NCBI GenBank assembly: GCA_019400425.1
Contig: JAFREE010000006.1
Coordinates: 124,001 to 188,000, forward strand
Source: Hymenochaete sp. R1
Lineage: Eukaryota; Basidiomycota; Agaricomycetes; Hymenochaetales; Hymenochaetaceae
Length of the DNA stretch: 64,000 bases
Direction of reading: 5' to 3'
Positions 8,808-57,488 of this stretch are shown here, piece by piece; positions within the stretch are counted from its first letter, which is position 1; each line of letters starts with the position of its first letter. The translations under genes were made by a program, and so were the position numbers. The notes under the pieces are model-generated. The model was not told where the DNA came from. It did not search any database and saw only the letters and a list, made by a program, of their open reading frames with translations.

Positions 8808-11800
8808 TCACGAAGCCCATATTTGAGACCAGTCGCTCCCATGATATAGCTTACTCCAGTCGATTCGTACTGGGTGGTCTTCGTCTTTCATCGAGATACA
8901 CTGCAGACTCATGTCCAATATTGCATTGCGATACTGTCCGGGTACCCACAGTAACAACTCCCCTGTCGTCGATCGGATCCACCCGTCTTCTGACATGCTC
9001 GTAGGGATTTGGTCGGGACCTATCACTTCGCATCCGCTCACAGACAAGTTCGGCTCCCAAAAGAATGATTGCGAATCCCACACGCGAATAGTTTTATCGT
9101 CACCACCGGTGACGATCCGAGAGCCGTCGGACGAAACGGACATGGTTCGAATCAAATAAGTATGGCGGCTTAACACACGTCCTAATGGATCGCCATTGTA
9201 TGGATCGAACGCTCGAATAGTAAGATCACTTGGCTGCGATGTCGAAAAAATGCGTTTGCTATCTGGTGAAAAAGAGATAGAAGCAAGACCAGCAGGCCGC
9301 TCGCAGAGAAGCCGCCTTTCTTGAACATCCCATACTTGTATACGCTCGTCCCGAAAACCAACAGCAAAAAGTTTCTGGTCGGGAGAAAAGGCGGTGCGTG
9401 AGACCCTAGACATCGAATCGAACATGGTAAGCTCCATAAAGGGCTCTCCTGATGTTTCACCGGAGTTGAGATTCCATAAACGTATTTTGTCATCGTCTGA
9501 AGCAAACACGATGATTGAATCGTCCGCAAAAAATGACACCAGTTTAATGCTACCGGCGAGTCCTTGTAGAGACCCCATCATACGGGTGCAAGAAGTGGTG
9601 TTCCAGATCGTTACTGTCGAGTCCTCGTTTCCAGCCACGAATTTCGTTCCGTCGCGCGAGAATGCGACACATGTAACTCCTTTGCGTTCCCAGATACTAT
9701 CTCGTGCATCTGCGTGCCACAATCGCGAGACCATCGCTCGATCTGTGTATCTAACTGCAATGTATCTCCAATCAGGTGAAAAGGAGGCGAAAGAAAACGA
9801 GTCAGAGGTTGAATGTTCTAATTTGAATCCATCTATGTGATTGCCAGAATGGGAATCCCATATTTGAATGTTTCCATCCATGCAAAAAGACATGATACGG
9901 TCTCCATCTGGAGAAAATGTCACACACATGACTGCATTCGTTGGACCAATTCGATGTGGATGAACTAAGCCCCCTTGAAAGATGTCGAGTACTTTGATAC
10001 TAATACCGTCCGTCGAGATGAGCCTGGTACTGTCTGAGGAAAAAAGCACCTGGTGGCTGCGAAACTCATGACGAGCCACCAGAGACAGCGTCAAGCTGTT
10101 CCATATACAGATGCAAGTTTCGCTTCCCGATGCGATATACTGTTCGTCCGGAGAGAGTGTTACGGATCGGACGCCTTTGCCAGCATCCAGTGGCTCGCCA
10201 ACTCCCCTACCTTTTACGCTGTCCCACACACGCACCGCCTCATCTTCCGCGATGAAGACGACCAGAGAAACAGTCGAAGAGAACGCGATACCGGCACCAA
10301 AGGAAGTTTGGTAGGCAACGGGAAAACACATCTCCAGTTTGCCAGACTGGACATTCCAGACGCGGACAGTTCCATCTCGCGATGTAGATGTAAGACATCT
10401 GCCCTCAAAGGAGAATATCACGGATAGTACGACATTTGTATGGCCCACGAGTTCTAAAGTGCACGTTTTTGTAACCAGATCCCACAATCTAATTGTTTCG
10501 TCACTTGAACCTGAGGCTAGCAGATGTCCTCCAGGTGCAAAGGCAAGAGTTCGAATACCATCGGAGTGCCCGAGCAACGGACAGTTGCAAGGAAGATGTG
10601 TTTCGGCGTCCCATAAAAAAATGGAAGGATCGCGGAGAGAACCTGAGGCCAACATTTGGCCATCAGGAGAAAATGCAATGGCATTGATCTCACTATCATG
10701 CGTCTCGATCCTTTTACCAACTTGTGTACCCAATTGTAGATCCCAAAAGACGATGTCACCTTCATCAAAATAAGAAACGGCATACCTGCCGTGAGGCGAA
10801 ACGGTTAAACCACTCGTCCATAAGCCAGTGAATATATCCAGTATAAAAGGAGAAGAATGATTGATGGGACGAGAGAGCACACTTGAACGGATGAAATCGA
10901 CTTTTCGTCCACCCCAGATTGAGCCTTGAGGAAACCACGCCAAAGCAGATATATAAAGATGGGGGGTACTGAAGGAAATAGGGGCGAATGAACGGTCCAG
11001 GAAGAGTCTAACCTCGGACGCCAAAACGATTACTTCATTCCCGGAAGTATCAGCCTTTATCTCAGTCAGACTATCGTACATTCTAAAACAATCATGGACA
11101 TACCTTTGGACCCGAACTCACTTTTACTAGTTTCTGTCTCGCGGTTTGCAAAATGCCGAGGAGACTCATGGCTTCGAGCCAAAATAATGCAAGGGGGGTG
11201 CCTAGCAATTGTTGTACCATGGCTATCGTTCTCGTATCCTGAACGCCTGCGGGGTTCGATTGAAGGTGATTCACCCAATATTCGCAGCTGTAACGAAGTT
11301 CCGGGGAGATATTCTGCAAAATGCGTTCGTCGAGATCGGATACCTCGCTGTTTGGGATGCCCGACGTATTAAGGTTACAGATGTTGAATTTCAGACCTGA
11401 AGGTACAGCTTTCTGGCGTTTGGCATTACGGGTGCCTTTCTCCATGATTTCGAGACATCCTATTGTCACGTTTGATTGCAGAACGGAAGGATCTGTGAAA
11501 TAATCTTGACACCGTGACTTCCTTGACAAGAAGTCGAGGAACGAAATATGATAAACACGAACGAGGCCATCACGACCTATGACCAGCACTGGCAAAAGAT
11601 TCTTGAATACTGTTTCGAATTCCCTTTCTAACACTAGAAGTGACGGTGGAAGAAATGCATAGATGGCGGTAACGGGAAGGAGTGCGTTGGAAGACGTGAT
11701 GAGGATGAAGCCTACAATAAATCGTACGATATCTTTCCCGGTTTTTGTTGAACCCGACGCGTTCTCCAGTACAGCCCGATATATGTTATCCAGAGCGGCT

Positions 11801-13938
11801 TCCGATTCCACGATGTTCCTAGATTTGAGGATGCAGTCTAAGACTTCGAGTTTTCCGACTTCCACTTTTACGGTGAACTCGACAACGGTGTAAATCCATA
11901 TGAAGAGGCCCTGAGACTTTTTGACTAGCAATCTCTTGTCATCGCCATCAATGAAACCCTGGAGGTCTGCTAATTGGCCACCCTCCGAGAACTGTGTTTC
12001 GACATACGCCTCGATATCGTCGTGCGCATCGTATTGAAATAGATCCCGTTCAGTTATCTTTTCACCCAACGTTTCCATCCGCTTTCGAATGCCGGGTAGA
12101 TCGCGACTGGTAATGAAGAAGGACACCCATGGAGCAAGATCGACTATCTCAGCCAAGATTCTGGATACTGCTTCACTATTTCTGCATTCGTCGAGCGCGT
12201 CAAGAACGAAAACCACTGGGTTCGCAACAGATGCACCCCCGATTTCCTTGAGAGGCTCCTTCAGAAGGAGTTCGAACTGCGTTCTCAAATCATCGTTAAC
12301 GAAAACGTCGGGCCTCCGAAGCGCCCGTAAAAGGCATTCTTTGTATTTTAAGCTCGCTTGTGCCAGGTGAAAAGCGATAGACCGAATCAGATGGACAGGG
12401 TCACGTCGAGCATCCCAATCTCCTTTGCAGAAGAATGATCCTGCTAATCGCTTCTTAAGAAGGCGGGACACAGTAGCGGCTATTGTGCTTTTTCCGCATC
12501 CCGCAACTCCGTAGAGCCAGAAGAGCCTTGATGCTTTCGAGTTATCGTTAACCCATTGCTGAATTTCTTGAAGTATCGCTAGTCGGGTTCCATCCAGACA
12601 CTCCGCTTTTCCAGTAAACAGGCTCCCTTTAGGAGGGACGATCGACCGGAGGAGCTTTCCCTCCGCCTTCTCATCGTGGCTATTACGCATACAATCCAAC
12701 GTCTCGTTCACTGTCACCACGCCCTCTTGAATTTCGTTGAGGAAGGCATCCCGAATGATTTCCTTGTGTTTCCTGAGGTCGCGTTCCAGATTCTCCGTAT
12801 GTGCGGTTCTCGATCGGGAAAAGAGCTTGCTTATAATGACTGAAAACAAAATTATCAAATACAGTATGTTCAAATACAAGCTTGCTGCTTACCTTTCTTT
12901 GGCTGGGAGTAGTACATAGAGATCTCTTGCGCTGCTTTGATTACTAGCTCAATCAATGTATCCAGGGCACTTTGGACGTTAGAGGTTTTAAAGTTCTTCT
13001 TGGTTTCCAAAACAGCTTCCACTTCTCGTACAAGGTCCATGGTAATGTCGACCACTCTTGTGTATATCAATGGAATATTTTCAATTCGCTAGCGGAAAAT
13101 GAGGACTTGCGTCATATGTGAAGGGGATACGCACGTCGAAAACTGCACGGATGATGGAGACAGCTGCTTTGGCCTCTGCTCTCAGCTAAGTGAATATCAA
13201 TGAACGAATGTAGTGTTTTATTTGTAGTGGGTTTCTCACCTCGCCTACGCTCGCTCCGATGTCCATCAATAATTTTAAGCTCTGGGTTCCCATCTCAAGG
13301 TAATGCATCATTTCTTCCTTGGACTTCAATGCCTCTACAGCATGCTGGAGACGAAACCCAGCAACGAAAGAGCCCTGGAATAATGTGTTGAGAGAGCTTT
13401 CTTATGATGAGAGTATAGTGTCGTCGCACCGTGCGTATCTCGCCCAGCTTGACTTTCACATCCATATCATATTCTACGAAGTCAAGTTCAAGACTCTGAC
13501 TATCTGAGTCATGGAAAGTTAAACGCTAACCTGGGACTACTTTCAGGTCGTTCCAGCCGTCGTCGTTGGACGAGATGGTCAGCTTTGAAGAGGGTACGTT
13601 CTTCTGCTTCTTGTCATAGCGAAAAACTTGGACGGACGGCGGCGAATCTATTTTGACGAATCTATCGATATTGGTTAAGTAGTTTCAGGGTATGTCGTTT
13701 GAAGGACCGTACGTCTTCAGGTCAATGGTGGCCTGGTTTGACTTGACTATCGTCTCGAAAGTTTCTATGGTGCCTGTGTGGTGTCGAATAACCACTCTAA
13801 ACTTGGATCGACATCGATTATCCGTGATGGAAATCTGCCTTACTTCGACAAAGCTTTCCAAGATCAGCTTTGAAGAGTAGTTGTCTTTAAACGTACTTAC
13901 CGAAGATGCTCGGAGGCTTCCTCCTCAACAATGGACAT
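8808..13938 (-). CDS. NACHT-WD40 NLR / STAND receptor, nine exons, 1,567 aa
   Basis: Exons on the minus strand: 13938-13901, 13838-13713, 13661-13531, 13473-13430, 13374-13240, 13185-13135, 13088-12893, 12839-11104, 11054-8808; total 4,704 nt. Residues ~1-120 form a beta-rich, C2-like region; ~120-240 are helical. NACHT follows, with Walker A GVAGCGKST (351-359), Walker B VFVLDALDEC (~450-459) and a sensor-like FFITSRDLP. A helical winged region ends near 819. The C-terminus carries roughly a dozen WD40 repeats, some degenerate, many with intact DxxIRLWDL-type strands. In fungi this architecture (HET-E/HET-D-like) mediates allorecognition or innate immunity: WD40 senses, NACHT oligomerises, the N-terminus signals. 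I infer that role. The 49 nt intron 11103-11055 (GTATGT...CTGAC...AAG) is needed to join NACHT to WD40; its 3' end is the weakest splice call. Confidence 0.88.
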
Positions 13939-14285: not shown

Positions 14286-15472
<1,187 letters not shown>

Positions 15473-15728
15473 ATTTGACTTCTGGTTTCCTCGATCTCGT
15501 TTCGTTATTTCTCACTCTGTTTCCTGCGTGTTGTATTGGTATCGCGAATCAAATTTTGGATGACAATAACAGTTACATGATCTTGGTCGAAGGCAAGGTG
15601 CACGAGGGAAATGAGGTTTGGTGAGTGAAATAGAATTTCAGAACTGAATTGGAATTCTGGAAGGAGTGTCATTTTCTGCTGTCCTCAATAATTGGTTCGA
15701 GGGCTCACCAACGTTGTGATTGGGGTGA

Positions 15729-15920
15729 TCAAGATATGACGCAGTAAGTACCGCTCGTCCCACCTCCAGGCTGTTCTTCTTCGACTGGTAATGATCCTGT
15801 CGATTCATCATTGCTAGCTGCCTTGGAATTTGCGTAGATTATCGCGTGCAAATTATTGGTCATGGTTGCAGGTGTGTTTTTGACGAAAACAGTGAAAGTG
15901 ATTGGCGTGAAATTATCCAT
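15729..15920 (-). CDS. Candidate lipopeptide mating-pheromone precursor (CaaX), 63 aa
   Basis: A single-exon frame from ATG 15920 to TGA 15729. The start MDNFTPITFT resembles the MD.FT. start common to Agaricomycete pheromone precursors. The end is GGGTSGTYCVIS followed directly by the stop, so Cys60-Val-Ile-Ser is a CaaX box for farnesylation and carboxymethylation. Acidic residues VEEEQ (46-50) lie ~10 residues before the Cys, where such precursors are cut. Length 63 fits the family (about 50-70 aa). A TATATAAG box lies ~91-98 bp upstream of the ATG. In basidiomycetes these peptides signal to STE3-type receptors; none is seen in this window, so this may be an unlinked pheromone gene or the edge of a B-type locus. 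Function is inferred from architecture alone; chance is possible for so short a frame. Confidence 0.68.
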   Translation of the reverse strand: MDNFTPITFTVFVKNTPATMTNNLHAIIYANSKAASNDESTGSLPVEEEQPGGGTSGTYCVIS

Positions 15921-16949
15921 TGTTGTAAACTCAAGCACGTTGAAGGAGATGGATAGTAAGTTGGAAGGTGAGCTGCAGCGTTGTGTTCTTGAACTCTACA
16001 AGCAAACTCGCTTATATACGTTTTAGTAAAGGCTAAATAGATTTCTTCTCCCGTTTACAGAAATCCCAGATCCCTCTTCTCGGCGATTGTCAATCTAAAG
16101 CAAACTACTGATCCATCTTCTGACATTGTAACGTCAATGCCAACGTGTCTTCTCCCCCTTTTACTCATCAGATCCAGGCTCAGATACGTTGCTACGACAC
16201 CACAAAGGCGAAGAATTCCATGGACTACAATCACGTCGAGCATTTTTTTTTACGAAAGTGACAGTCGTTATGAGATTTTGGAGGCGATCAGGAGAAGGTG
16301 AGACCTCATGTCCGACGAGGGGGACGATGTGCGTCTATTTCTTAAGTTTGTAAGCGGTATGACCGAAAACCCATCGTGCCGTAACTCTACAGATCTCTCC
16401 GAGGTCAATGCTGCGAACAGTACCCTCGGCGGTGTTTGGAACTGAGGAGATCTGGATCATGTACATCTAAGACGTTTCAGGAAAATGCATAATAGCTATT
16501 ACTCATTTTATATAGGTCTTTTGAATGAGCCTTTCTTACAACGATCTTATGGCGATCTTTCATTTTTTTTTCGCGAAAATGAGATCCAGTGAGGAGCATC
16601 GAGCAGCAAGAAGCATAGGCCGCCTGAGGTGTACAAATAGCTGTGCTTAGTAAATGAAACTCCGACGACGCGGTGTAGCCAGTGCAGGCCTACCACTGTA
16701 CCAGCCACTCGACCATTAATATTTCATTTCAAACAGGAATCTCGACTTGAACACTAGATATCCTACAAAACTCCTCATTCGTCAGCTTGAACCGATTTGA
16801 GTCTACTATAATACACCCGCGTCTCTCCTCTTCTTCTGAGCTGGTAAAGAATTTACTTCAAATCGCCCAATTGCCTGCCGTCACTGCCAGTGTTAGTACA
16901 TCTCTCCTGCAAGTTCATTTCCAGAGAGCGCAGAAAGTGTACTGTACGG
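15921..16949. other. Intergenic between pheromone-like and AIM3/BBC1-like genes
   Basis: About 1 kb. Apart from the TATA box I see only short frames without motifs. I looked for further C-terminal CaaX frames by eye and found none convincing, but frames below 60 codons were not examined exhaustively. Confidence 0.4.
16011..16018 (-). promoter_or_regulatory. TATA box of the pheromone-like gene
   Basis: TATATAAG on the minus strand, 91-98 bp upstream of ATG 15920, followed by a C/T-rich leader. The spacing is suitable for a highly transcribed short gene. Confidence 0.5.
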
Positions 16950-18810
16950 ATGCCTTTCAATGGTATGACTCTTTCATTGTTGTCTTTCTGCAGCAACAAT
17001 AACTGTAATTGCTCGTGCAACTTTCAGTCGCCTCAATCAAAGACAAGGCCGTTTCGGCCAAAAATGCTACAATGACCAAAGTCCACGACACCCGAGACAA
17101 GTACTCCAGCACACCCATGGCCCAGACAAAGTTCGCAAACGATGGTTATGGAATCGACCACAGGAAATCCCCACCGCCGCCCCCGCCCCCGACGCGATCC
17201 TACAGAAGCTCTCATGCGGGTTCATCAAGCGTCTCCAGCCTTCCGAGGTCTTCAGAGGACGGCGCGCCTGTCACCCCTGCCAGAACGGGACCTCCGCCCC
17301 CTGTAAATAGGGGAGCGAAACCCGTGTCAGCGAAGTCGAGTTCAGATAGCGTATCGTCGCTATCGAGACCCGCTCCTCCCTCAAGAGTATCTTCTGTACT
17401 TGACCGTGCAAAGGCATTTGGATCTGCAGAGTCGCTCGGTTCCTCAGCGCCACACCGTCCTTCTGCACCTCCTATACGAAAGGACGATAACACTACGAGC
17501 ATTGATACGATAGATTGGGCAAATTTGAGCTCAGGAGATAAGCAAGAGTTCTTTCGATGGCTCGATGAGTTCTTCAGCAGGTTCCTTAACACAAAGGGTA
17601 GCGTTCGGAGCAGCGATGCTTATGAGAACGAGAAATTTTCGGTGATCGTTGATCCTCCTCCTGCACCGTCCGTATCCGAATCAAAAGTGCAAGGTCAAGG
17701 TCCTCCAGTGAGTTGTTTTCAGCGCTATAAACCATATTGGCAATTGTCACTTAGACTTGTATAAGCCTGTGGTGAAGTCTTGGTCCAAACCCAAGCTGGA
17801 AAGGGTCAACTCGGATGGTACGCTTGTATATCATTTGCACTTCTAGTCAACTGATGAAACTTCCTGAAGGTGACTTCGGTAGCTCGTATCCTCCTCCAAC
17901 GACTCACGGAAGCCAAGGTTTAGATTTAGTACATTATTTCCATCCGTCCACGCACTGGGCAGATGCCTGGTACGCTCAGAACGCACCGAGTCCACCGCCA
18001 CTCCAAGAAAACTCACAAAGAATTTCAAAAGGTCAATTTGTAACAAGGGGAGACACGAAATCTGTCTCGCACGCAGCGCTCTTCTCCGATCTCAGTACCG
18101 CCTGGGTTTCTGTATCCTTCTCAGCGTCTAACCCTTCTATTATACGATCGCGCACGGGTCAATACCTTCCTCCGCCTTCTTCTCTGTCGAAAGCTGTACT
18201 TGAAGAAGCTAGCGCGACATATGGAGAGTCGATCGCAAGCTTCGCGGAGAGCTTCATTGGATCAGGCACATTCTGCGCGCGAGGCGAGTGTTGGGACCTA
18301 GCCTCCGAAGCACTCAAATATGTCACGTCGTTTGATTACATTGACAAACCTGTGTCGAGTATCAGCCGCACTCATGGACATCTTATCTTTAGCGGGAAAG
18401 CAATGGGGAAGGGGATGCAGGTGGGAAAGTGGAGGGGTGGGGATGACCGTGTAAGAAGGGGGGATATCGTTGAGTGGAGGTCCGTCAGGATCAATTTCGT
18501 GGGAGCGCCAATGGGAAGCTATGCGATATTGGGGGATCCAGAACATACAGCCATTATTACAAGGGACTCAATACCGCAATGCACTGAAGGCGAGTTGAGG
18601 GATGGAATGAATTTGAAACCGAGCGCGATAGGAAGTCTGGAAGTCGTTGAACAGAGTGTTAGCCAGCCGCCTGAGCCGAAGAAACAGGAATATGACATGG
18701 AGGCGTTCGAACAAGGGGAAGTGTGGATTTATAGGCCTATTTCGATGGCAACCTATCTCGGCTTTGACGATTTGGATGTGAATGCTCCTGCGCATGCTCT
18801 TTCCGTTTAA
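16950..18810 (+). CDS. AIM3/BBC1-like actin-patch protein, four exons, 561 aa
   Basis: Exons 16950-16962 (only 13 nt), 17028-17707, 17766-17817, 17870-18810; the join closes in frame. The N-terminus MPFNVASIKDKAVSAKN resembles the short helical start of fungal AIM3 proteins. Residues ~40-170 are Pro/Ser-rich, with a run of seven prolines (PPPPPPP) and PPPPVNRG, likely SH3 ligands. The C-terminal ~290 residues form a folded domain with GTFCARGECWDLASEAL and THGHLIFSG, like the cysteine-proteinase-fold domain shared by AIM3 and BBC1/MTI1. These proteins bind actin-patch and myosin-I regulators in endocytosis. No SH3 domain is present, unlike Bbc1. The third exon uses a TAAG acceptor chosen by phase. 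Confidence 0.62.
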
Positions 18811-52441: not shown

Positions 52442-55400
52442 ATGGACTCTTGCGGTCAACAGCAGCAGCAGCAGCCAAAGTTCTCGTCTCGCTTCTCATC
52501 ATTCAACAATGTCTTCTCCAAATTGTCCTCAAAGCCGCCCCGCCCTCCGCCGAAAGACCAATGGTACCTCCACCCAGGCTCAAAGTCCTCCATCTCTCTC
52601 GCACCCTCACACTCCCTTTCAGTAAATACCCCCACAATATCCTCATCTTCCCATGAAACACTCCATTTCCGCACACAGCCTACTCCCCCGCTTAACATCT
52701 CCACCATCGCAGCAACCAAGTCCCATTCTGATCTTTCTCGCACAATGACTCCTACCTCTACTCGCAGTCGCGCTACGATGGCAACGACAAACACGCAGAC
52801 GACGACAGAAATGAGCTCCTTTCGGAGGGGTATTTCAAAGATCTCGAGCTCGTTGGGCAGGCGCTCCAGTCGGAAACTCCTTTTCTCTCGCTCGAACGCG
52901 TCGCACACGACACTTGGTATCGACTCCATACCGTCGTCTGACGACGTTGGGATCTATGATTCGCCCGTTACCGACGAAGACACGTCGAAGCCTTGGAACT
53001 TCAAAGTGCGTCGATTCGGCCTCTTCTATCATTCTTTCTTTTTTTGTTGACCCGGTATCTGTACGGCCGTTCGCCTGCAGCACAATCTACACGTCGACGA
53101 AGAGTGCGTCCGTTCCGCTCGCCTCTGGCTTTTGTTTTGTTTCGAAAAACTAAATTTCGCGTCCTTTCACACAGCTTAAACGGTCTCCCGCCGGAATGGT
53201 TGCACAAACTACGCGACAGCGGCATGAAAGACATCGACATCGCGTCCATCACCTCCCGCCGTAACCGTACGACTTATCTCAAACAACATCCAGACCTCTC
53301 CCCAGACTCCCTCCGCCCCAGCAGTAGGACAAACTCTCCCTTCTCTCCTGTCTCCCCCTCATCCGTTGCATCCCCCGCATCGCCTCTCACTTCGAACCCA
53401 CTTCCAGCGTCATCGTTGCCAACCCGGTCCACGTCTCTCCGGCGACCTTACGGCCCGGGCCCGGGGTCACACTCAAGCCGGTCATCAGACTCGACGGGGA
53501 CTACACCGTCGCTGTCGACCAGTAGCCCATCGGTTTCCGAGGAAGACGAAGAGGGCGATCCTAGTACCGCCACCGCACAACAGTTCACGATCCCCGTACG
53601 CGGGGACTTGCCCTATTCAGAAAGCGATCGTGAGTCTGGACGACATCCACGCACGCGGACGCCGCCGAGTCGATCGGCGACGGCCACGACAGCGACGTTC
53701 AGAGTAATGAATGCGGGCCCGCCGTCACCCCCGCCGGCGTATGACCCTGTGTCGCCTGATATGCCTCAAGCGCAGGTGCATGTGTCTGATGAGAAGACGC
53801 GACTATCGATGACGAGACCTGAAGTTTCGGATTTGGGGATGGAACGGCGCTCGGAGGAGACGTTGACGCCTGAGGTGATGCTGAGGGGTGAACGACAAGG
53901 TGACTGGGATCGGGATCGGATGCAGATAGCAACAGATGGGGAGGCGCCCACGATTATTCGTACCTCGAGCCCGTCGAACGATGAAGAGGAGGATAGACAG
54001 GACGGAGTAGAGTCCCGTTTTCCGGTTTCGCGTGCGTCCGCGCTGCCGCCGCGGCTTTCCCTTCATCAGGACGACCTCAGCAGTTGGACAGAATCCTTGT
54101 TCTCATCGCTTGATACGCCCAAAGAGGAAGCGGATGAGTCTGGTCTGGGCTTCGGTCTTGGGGGAGGAGGTACAAGTACAAGCATAGAAACAGAAGGGAA
54201 ACAAATGAAGAAGACGACGGTGTCGCCTTTGGTGTTGACACATCGCAAGGGGATGCCGAACGTGATGATAGAGACGGAGGACGAGGAGGCGGAGGCTTCT
54301 TCGAATCCGAATTCATCAGAAGTCTCCCTGTTAAATCGACACGGGTCGACGACGCCGTTATTTGACGAGGTACTCCAGCTTGTCCAGCAGCCACCGGGCA
54401 CAGCGGCGTCGCAAGCGCATTCGGACTCGCCGCCTCTAACTTCCACTTATCCTTACCTTCCCAACTCCAATGCATCCGCCTCCAGCGCCCCCACTTCGTC
54501 CTCGCCCATTCCATCTCCCGTCCCATCCCCATCCAACTCCTCGTCCTCCCATGCCTCTCACGGCACCTCCAACGTCGGCAACCAATACGACTTCCTCAAC
54601 ACCAATTATGACCCTTACCGCAACTCCAGCGCCTCCGCTTCTTCACAGCCAAGCAACGGAAGCAGCCGAGACTCCCAAATGACAATCTCAAATCACGGCC
54701 ACGGTGACAATGATAATGACGATGCGAATCCGGATAGGTGGAGTCGCGTGACGACGGCGACGACGAGGACTGTGCGGGACGTGCGGGAGGCGACGATCGT
54801 GCATGTACGGAAGGCAAGCGTGGGGAACGCGATGACAATCCCCGCTCCGGCTCCGACACTCGCTCCTACCAGAGGAGGATCGACCTCGGCCTCGACTTCT
54901 GCGGCTCCTTCGCCCGTTCTAACAGTTAGTGTCGAGGGCGTCAATGCGTCGGGTCCGGAGGAAGGGCAAAGGATGGCACGTCCAAACATGACCGTTGGTG
55001 GAGGTGGAGGTGCTGGTTCTGGTACTGCTCTCATACCGGAAACGCGACCACTGAGCACTGCGAGCAGCGATGGACAGTCTTCACCCTCTGCCGACGACTT
55101 CCCGTTACCGCCTCCTTCGGCTGGGGCTGCGGAAGGCTCGTTTGCAGGGTCTCCGATGTCGACTACGTTCTCGGTGAGGTCGGGGTCGGCGCTGCCGTAC
55201 GCTGCTGCTCGCAGTCCGGGGCTTGAGTCGATGACAGCGACGGCGACAAACGGGCCTCCAACTGCTCGATCGTCGCATTCAAGTTCCGGTTCCAGGTCTG
55301 GATCCGGGTCGGCCGGGTCGAGTGAGAGTACGGATACGAGTAGTTCGCAAGTTCACACCATCTCGGTAACGTCGTACTCTGACGCCGACGAGGGGTGTAC

Positions 55401-57488
55401 GAACGAGAACGCAAACAACAAGAGCAGCAACGGCAATAAGAAACCAGCCCATCTGAAGATGTTTTACGCCAAAACCACGTCCGCCCCTCTCACATCGCCC
55501 GGGCATACGAGATTCCAAAATGGGTCGGAACGGCTGCAGCAGCCACAGCTCTCCCCTGCGCCTTCCTCTCTATGGGGGTCCGTGTCCGAGAGCGAGAACG
55601 GGATCGTCCTGGACGTAGAGCCTATCGGGATGGTTCCCCGACCTCTCACCTCGCCCTCGCCCAGTATGAGTCTCAGTGTGAACGGTCTTCGTTCGAGTCC
55701 TTCGTCGAAAGGCGATCAGCGGAAGAGCAGGCTGAGCGCAGGAGGGGCGAGCATGATGGACTGGTTGATGGATATGGACTCGCCGTCGCCGAGGCCAGAG
55801 GAGATGACGGGACCTGCGTTGAGAGATTCGGTGACGATGCATAGTATGCTGGGGAGTGCGGGTGCTTGTGTAGGTGCGGGGGAATCGAATTCACCGAGGT
55901 CGCCTAATACGCGTGTTATGGCGCAAGGGGCTGGTTCGGATTTGACTGCGAGCCTGGGAGCGAACGGGAATTCTATGTCACCTAAACGACCTGCTATCCA
56001 GACAAATGGGTTCGGTGGGTCGAACGCGAACGCGAACGGGAATGCCGACAGGAGGAAATCGACGACACAATTCCTGTCTCCATCCCCCGCCTCTGGGTCT
56101 GCTTCCGAGTCAACGACCCCCTCCACTTCGTCTCCATCTCCGTCCCCCTTGGCGAGATACAGAGGCTGGGTATCGGAGGTTCTAGCCCCACTCGAGGAGT
56201 TCATCGATCACACCGTCGAGCCGCAGACGCTCTTCTCGGACCTACAGGAGATCGCAGAGGGCGAGTCTGGCTCCGTATTCGCAGCCACCCTCGTTGCGCT
56301 CCCCCCTCGCTCGTCCCGTACACCTTCCTACATCCGTTCCTCTTCCTCCTCTTCAGCATACACTCGGACCGTTGGCTCGCTCGTCGCTATCAAGCACGTC
56401 CCCCTCATCCCCGGCGGCTCGTCGAAGCTAGAGGACTTACGGAAGGAGATGATGCTGATGGGGCAGGTGCGGCACGCGAATGTATTGAGCGTGGAGGCGA
56501 TGTATGTGGACTTGGTGGAAGACGCACTGTGGATTGAGATGGAGCTGATGGAGAGGAGCTTGGCGGATGTGTTGGCTGCGCTCGCGGGAGCAAGCGAGGA
56601 GGAGGGGTCTGAGGGGGGAATGCTTGGGGAGGGTGTGGTGGCGAGGTTTATGAGTGACGTGAGTGCTCTTCTCTGGGTTTTTTTTCTTAAACTTTTCCAA
56701 GGAGTTGACGGAGTTGACGATGCCAATGCTGATCTTGGATTCTCTCTTTGCTTTGTGATTGTGTAGTTATTAAATGCCCTTGCGTACCTCCAAGAACAAG
56801 GCATCGTCCATCGTGATATCCGTTCAGACAACCTCTTGATCAATAGCTCAGGGGTTCTCAAAATAAGTGAGTCCTAATCAAATGAATGCTCTTCTTTCTA
56901 ACTCCGTCTCACGTTACTCACACAATCACTCTTCCTTCTATATCCCCCAACCCAGCCGACTTCTCCCATGCCCTTCTCCTCGACGCGTCCCATCCAACCT
57001 GCACAGAGCCCGCAGGCGTCATCTACTGGCAAGCCCCCGAGATGCGCACTCTCGGTACTCCATACAACGCCCTGAAAGTCGACGTCTGGTCCGCAGGCGC
57101 GACCGCGTGGGAGATGGCAGAGTCGAACCCGCCGTTCTTTGACTTTGACGTGGAGGCGGGTGATGTGAGGGCGCTGCCGGTGAGGTGGCCCGCGTTGAGC
57201 GGGATGGGAAGGTTTTCGGCGGCGTTTGAGGAGTTCTTAGGGCTTTGTTCGAATGAGCCGCGGGAGAGGCCGGGGGCTGAGGAGCTTTTGAAGGTACGTT
57301 TTCGATTTTTTTTTTGCTCGCTCGAGGACGTCGTGAACTGACGCTATAATTTTCATTATCAGACACCTTTCATCACCTCTGCGTGCGACCGGTCTCATAT
57401 TGTCGATATTCTGAGGCAGTGCAGGGATATCGAGGAGCGCATGCAACGGCGCACGAGCGGCGAGTCGGAAGGGACTGTTCTTTCGTAG
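52442..57488 (+). CDS. Divergent PAK-family (STE20-type) Ser/Thr kinase, six exons, 1,544 aa
   Basis: Exons 52442-53005, 53081-53103, 53175-56658, 56767-56866, 56956-57293, 57363-57488. A CRIB/p21-binding-like segment crosses the first two splices: KPWNFKHNLHVDE, then [14 protein letters not shown] (~184-215). About 1,000 residues of Ser/Pro/Thr-rich, probably disordered sequence follow. The kinase domain is C-terminal: glycine loop [13 protein letters not shown] lysine VAIKHV (Lys ~1269), HRDIRSDN (His ~1372), metal motif DFS (~1392) in place of [23 protein letters not shown] kinases act below Cdc42/Rac in polarity and mating; the Cdc42 link is inferred. The linker and the DFS make STE20 or CLA4 orthology unsure. 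Start ATG 52442 precedes a Gln run. Codon use in exon 3 is GC-rich, producing many antisense open frames. Confidence 0.88.

Follow-up and report, generated by a model that had tools for sequence, protein, structure and literature searches.

A putative non-mating-type pheromone precursor gene and its dispersed relatives in Hymenochaete sp. R1

A frame of 63 codons in the genome of Hymenochaete sp. R1 is best read as a working lipopeptide pheromone-like precursor gene of the Agaricomycete class, with a non-mating-type signal as its likeliest role; we put the probability of this reading at roughly 0.75. The frame lies in the window, a stretch of 64 kb (C293:124001-188000), and the search was extended to the assembly of this one genome (27.8 Mb, 27,796,547 bases, 336 contigs). 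The reading starts from what was observed directly, namely the frame, its family match, its motifs, a TATA box, paralogs and the positions of receptor genes. The gene adds a member to a known, poorly understood class of precursors. More interesting than the single gene is the genome-wide picture of seven candidate precursors, two receptors and no cassette.

The precursor frame and its surroundings

Features of the window are as follows.
15729..15920, (-): pheromone-precursor-like CDS, 63 aa and TGA stop, from translation, PF08015 match and family profile search of the genome
15909..15920, (-): N-terminal MDxF motif; M1, D2 and F4 invariant across 19 aligned precursors
15774..15788, (-): PVEEE, acidic presumed maturation site 5′ of the mature peptide; P45 invariant in the 19 sequences
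15741..15773, (-): predicted mature peptide QPGGGTSGTYC, with a putative exact N-terminus; Gly-rich like the published non-mating-type consensus
15732..15743, (-): CVIS, C-terminal CaaX prenylation signal with the stop directly after; Y-C-V invariant in the 19 sequences
16011..16018, (-): TATATAAG, TATA box, -98 to -91 from the ATG; a TATA box is also found 5′ of five of the six other precursor genes
14548..15472, (+): rRNA adenine dimethylase (Dim1-like) gene, tail to tail; PF00398, E 2e-35 on 14714-15469
17009..18810, (+): AIM3/BBC1-like gene, head to head; PF25459, E 6.9e-48 on 17776-18807

The frame at 15729-15920 is intact and translates as MDNFTPITFTVFVKNTPATMTNNLHAIIYANSKAASNDESTGSLPVEEEQPGGGTSGTYCVIS up to its stop, with the plan MDNFT...PVEEE-QPGGGTSGTYC-VIS-stop over 63 codons. 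The sequence-only reading had described it in these terms (MDNFT at the start, acidic residues before the peptide, CVIS before the stop), and translation confirmed the description, the TGA following the CaaX box immediately. The nearest in-frame stop on the 5′ side is at -78, and no ATG occurs in between. The EEE of the presumed maturation site (residues 47-49) precedes the CaaX Cys (residue 60) within a spacing of 10-15 residues, a value taken from Rhizopogon, where the motif is ER. Charged dipeptides including EE are listed as processing sites in PMC8305134. Four of the 11 residues of the predicted mature peptide are Gly, and its likeness to the consensus given in the same source was judged by eye.

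The peptide matches PF08015 (‘Fungal mating-type pheromone’) over residues 1-62 with 32.1 bits and an E value of 2.5e-7, above the curated cut-off of 22, and is thus a member of this family by that cut-off. Together with motif comparison and the paralogs, the match supports the earlier assignment to the Agaricomycete-type lipopeptide precursors. A search with an alignment of five paralogs returned 15 proteins at E <=10, with E values from 1.2e-11 to 0.39 (8 of 15 at <=1e-3). Twelve of them, all but P0126, P0133 and P0135, were combined with the seven precursors of this genome in the 19-sequence alignment. In these 12 outside sequences MDxF, the Pro and YCV are conserved and the acidic site has the form xxxE or xxxD; the 12 include a ‘pheromone-like peptide’ of Fomitiporia mediterranea and two Tricholomella proteins named ‘Pheromone’; in 10 of the 12, YCV occurs twice, corresponding to two units. 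Among five precursors of the Hymenochaete genome itself, both P45 and E49 are invariant. When five of the 15 relatives were scanned with Pfam, P0123 and P0131 scored above the PF08015 cut-off and P0122, P0129 and P0136 below it.

The TATA box had been noticed at about 91-98 bp upstream and was located on the minus strand at 16018-16011. Six of the seven precursor genes carry TATA[AT]A[AGT] within 250 bp 5′ of the ATG (at -98, -147, -156, -210, -193 and, in the C68 gene, -174), the background being 102 of 1384 stretches of 250 bp from this part of the contig and three others. The C168 gene is the one without this pattern; inspection by eye showed only a site resembling TATTTAAG.

The start of the Dim1-like gene at 14548 is that of a frame read by eye, and its exons are approximate; the frame at 17009-17761 has no Pfam match and was assigned to the AIM3/BBC1-like gene through its position only. 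About 3 kb away from the precursor gene, adjacent minus-strand frames at 8811-12888 encode a long WD40 propeller and an NPHP3_N/NACHT ATPase; judged by these domains, they form a putative NLR-like NACHT-WD40 gene. An open stretch of 1268 codons at 52960-56763 (+) matches protein kinases weakly, with a score under the Pfam cut-off, and appears STE20/PAK-like by eye; G+C is 0.567 at 52-56 kb versus 0.459-0.505 elsewhere. Motifs resembling 5′ splice sites (GTGAG/GTACG/GTAAG-like) were seen by eye after some stops, at 15690-15729 and 3′ of other precursor genes, and may fit the 3′-UTR introns of Agaricus (PMC8305134).

Precursor and receptor genes in the genome

The further precursor genes and the receptor genes are listed with the search that found them or the gene model.
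C293:192827-193042, (-): precursor, 71 aa, two units; PF08015
C52: precursor, 46 aa; PF08015
C325: precursor, 40 aa; PF08015
C295 (local L022:4926-5147), (+): precursor, 73 aa, two units; PF08015
C68:118261-118389, (+): precursor, 42 aa; Y-C-V-[IVM]-x-stop pattern
C168 near 119569, (+): precursor, 47 aa; Y-C-V-[IVM]-x-stop pattern
C293:208826-210311, (+): STE3, first; open multi-exon model, 457 aa
C293:211608-213688, (+): STE3-B, second; open multi-exon model, 634 aa

Profile and pattern searches thus place at least seven precursor genes on six contigs. The window gene had been called an orphan, a term that needs qualifying because at least six other precursor genes exist in the genome. The gene forms no tight cassette with STE3, the nearest copy lying 68.9 kb away. 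The PF08015 search of the genome gave five places, all of them precursor frames, and the Y-C-V-[IVM]-x-stop pattern gave eight, which are the same five, the C68 and C168 genes and the end of a 134-codon open stretch on C328 that lacks MDxF and is not a precursor. A wider pattern gave 14 places, the same seven precursors and seven others, none of which is a precursor: L034, L035 and L039 have no stop at the end, and L036, L037, L038 and L040 are ends of open stretches without an MDxF start. The bare pattern ATG-GAY-NNN-TTY was uninformative, with 1012 places versus 445 in the reversed control, and two further protein queries of the genome added no precursor. Seven is a lower bound, since precursors with other CaaX letters outside the scanned part of C293 would escape these searches. 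Mushroom pheromone precursors are often missed, and here PF08015 listed five of the seven, missing those on C68 and C168, so that annotation by PF08015 alone may overlook such genes. The Sanghuangporus sanghuang genome paper likewise reports an STE3 pair but states that no precursor could be identified (PMC8537844).

MDxF, P[VT]xxE and, close to the C-terminus, YCV are common to all seven precursors, and the set is Tyr-Cys-ending and mostly Gly-rich, a single Gly being present in two of its nine units. Two precursors, at C293:192.8 kb and on C295, consist of two units each with an internal CaaX-like CVVA/CVVS; by its sequence, the first unit could be prenylated solely after an internal cut. 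A blastn comparison of the DNA around five of the seven genes (those other than C68 and C168) showed no mutual similarity beyond one coding match of 67 bp between C293:192.8 kb and C295. Because the surrounding DNA is dissimilar, the five compared genes are not allelic copies of each other.

No STE3 match was found inside the 64-kb window by PF02076 search, as the sequence-only reading had stated. In the whole genome, PF02076 and two protein searches found two STE3 genes, which are adjacent and lie on the contig of the window, 69-72 kb to the right of the window gene and beginning 21 kb beyond the window end. The closest STE3 relatives among the best 120 of 1126 listed matches share 59% identity and come from Sanghuangporus, Coniferiporia and Phellopilus, which points to a probable member of Hymenochaetaceae. 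The second STE3 has diverged strongly, carries a tail of about 330 residues and may not be a mating receptor. At 13-18 kb past the pair lie a PBD domain and kinase pieces in the same orientation, and Ribosomal_S19, which are read from these domains as a putative Cla4/PAK kinase and a putative mitochondrial RSM19. PAK and RSM19, the two flanking genes compared here, belong with DML1, RIC1 and SNF2 to the flanks of Trichaptum MATB (PMC8970355), and in S. sanghuang CLA4 is 6.97 kb from the STE3 pair (PMC8537844). The STE3 region is therefore MAT-B-like, as its PAK/CLA4 and RSM19 flanks match known MATB. A frame near STE3 that was read by eye as a PH domain has no Pfam match.

The adjoining part of the contig was searched for both STE3 and CaaX frames. 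At C293:188-248 kb, the scan for intronless frames gave a single credible CaaX precursor, the two-unit gene at 192.8 kb, which is 15.8 kb away from STE3; none was found within 15 kb of the pair. A 30-aa frame ending in CFCG at C293:211840-211932, antisense to intron 1/exon 2 of STE3-B, was set aside, as it lacks both MDxF and YCV and its CaaX is poor. Between the window gene and STE3 lie genes for AIM3/BBC1-like, phage-type (mitochondrial) RNA polymerase, Rtt106-like, RNA polymerase I A49 and Vps36 proteins. Homeobox (HD) genes occur on C201 in opposite orientation, beside an M3 peptidase (MIP-type) gene, and one further homeobox gene is on C68. The sequence-only reading had offered an unlinked pheromone or the edge of a mating locus, and each is partly borne out: a MAT-B-like STE3 pair is on the same contig, but at 69 kb it is far for a classical cassette.

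Possible roles of the precursor gene

We infer that the gene is expressed and that its product is lipidated, processed and bound by a receptor in a role other than mating, along the following lines. Its own TATA promoter, between the Dim1-like and BBC1-like genes, would drive transcription. In the 63-aa precursor, the Cys of CVIS would be prenylated, probably with a farnesyl group, after which the VIS tail would be removed and the Cys then methylated. A cut near PVEEE would take off the N-terminal part to give approximately QPGGGTSGTYC(farnesyl)-OMe, and the lipidated peptide would be exported. Candidate receptors for the dispersed peptides are the STE3 pair, the only receptors found. Every cell would make the same peptides, and STE3 signalling would be stimulated without a choice between self and non-self, as proposed for bipolar Agaricus.

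In our reading, a role in determining mating type is less likely for the window gene than a non-mating-type role. The gene lies away from the receptors and has several dispersed paralogs, and both this position and the peptide QPGGGTSGTYC fit the non-mating description of A. bisporus (PMC8305134), a status carried over from other species by analogy. Against it, two of the seven precursor genes are on the STE3 contig, which may reflect leftover or active linkage and would leave room for a part in mating. The gene could then be a genuine mating-type pheromone within an enlarged MAT-B, in which recombination is suppressed over at least 70 kb and alleles differ between mating types. The two STE3 genes, the only ones found, are on its contig with another precursor gene in between, and random placement would put the STE3 pair on any of the six precursor contigs in about 4% of cases (1,174,866 of 27,796,547 bases); the value of 0.0039 for two of seven precursor genes on C293 overstates the linkage because the window had been picked first. 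Also in favour of this reading, matB alleles of Pleurotus span 45 to 150 kb (PMC13108863). The intervening stretch, however, carries ordinary genes, the peptide resembles the Gly-rich class termed non-mating-type in other species, and the intronless scan found no precursor next to the receptor, so that an enlarged MAT-B seems unlikely.

More improbable is a decaying or silent paralog, left over from duplication and giving no product. The N-terminal half of the window peptide is the longest of the set, exceeding that of the single-unit paralogs by about 20 residues in the alignment, and a protein search with the single sequence found no homologue (a PDB search with the peptide gave no match either). 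Yet the frame is intact, its motifs are common to the family and its TATA box is of the consensus form. A chance open frame beginning MDNF and ending CVIS is scarcely credible. Short frames occur often, 63 of >=40 aa overlapping 13-19 kb of the window, and strict CaaX ORFs of 25-110 aa arose at a mean of 0.55 per window when the 64 kb were resampled 40 times with a first-order Markov model. However, none of the 40 resampled windows had one with an MDxF start, whereas the real window has exactly one strict CaaX ORF, and it starts with MDxF; a looser CaaX pattern (25-130 aa) gave three frames, the other two without MDxF. This explanation is already contradicted by the family match (E 2.5e-7) and the paralogs, which share the internal motif with the outside sequences, and the frame is very probably a real gene.

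Beyond the non-mating-type role of the window gene, we tentatively raise the possibility that the pheromone/receptor system as a whole has been taken apart, with an STE3 pair without an adjacent precursor and at least seven dispersed precursors. If all cells made the same peptides and STE3 were self-stimulated, the HD locus alone would set mating type, and the two-unit Tyr-Cys-ending precursor might be an old signal of Hymenochaetales and Agaricales that does not serve mate choice. With seven candidate precursors and two receptors in a small genome, it becomes testable which ligands, if any, still act on STE3 without a cassette-like locus.

Comparison with known precursors

The unit plan of Pro, acidic site, Gly-rich stretch and TYCV is shared with the Tricholomella constricta ‘Pheromone’ proteins P0131/P0134 and the unnamed P0122-P0125. 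Tricholomella-type precursors have two units, like those at C293:192.8 kb and on C295, whereas the window gene has one. Tandem units within one precursor are found in red yeasts. No description of Agaricomycete precursors with two units turned up in the literature searched, which is weak evidence of absence. The ‘pheromone-like peptide’ of F. mediterranea (P0129), a species placed in Hymenochaetales (PMC8970355, PMC10410303), is a single unit like the window peptide and ends in GGSGTYCVIT, but it is 39 aa long, is 50% identical across 51% of the query and scores 15.3 bits, under the PF08015 cut-off.

The MD start, acidic maturation site and CaaX are also found in the MAT-B precursors Phe3 of Trichaptum (PMC8970355) and phb of Rhizopogon (PMC5473757). 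These two adjoin STE3, whereas the window gene is 69 kb off and Gly-rich. F. mediterranea and ‘Phyrrhoderma’ species are called bipolar and Trichaptum tetrapolar (PMC8970355); in papers on S. sanghuang (PMC8537844) and Inonotus obliquus, tetrapolarity was inferred from separate contigs.

The closest parallel in role is offered by bipolar Agaricus bisporus, which has four dispersed Gly-rich precursors, at least three of them expressed (PMC8305134), whereas the window gene is known from sequence. Three of the four resemble the non-mating-type peptides that Coprinopsis and Laccaria have, GGGSGNGAYC and GGGSGNNAYC (PMC8305134), and Pycnoporus cinnabarinus likewise has four precursors resembling presumed non-mating ones (PMC4101180). 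The window gene differs from the Agaricus genes in length (63 versus 44-54 aa) and in peptide (GGGTSGTYC versus GGGSGNGAYC). Like the non-mating-type precursors of Agaricus, none of which was found linked to a MAT-B-type receptor, it is one of several dispersed genes and encodes a short precursor with MDxF, a charged site, a Gly-rich peptide of about 11-13 aa, the Y-C consensus end and CaaX; for the A. bisporus precursors, activation of STE3 independent of mating has been suggested (PMC8305134).
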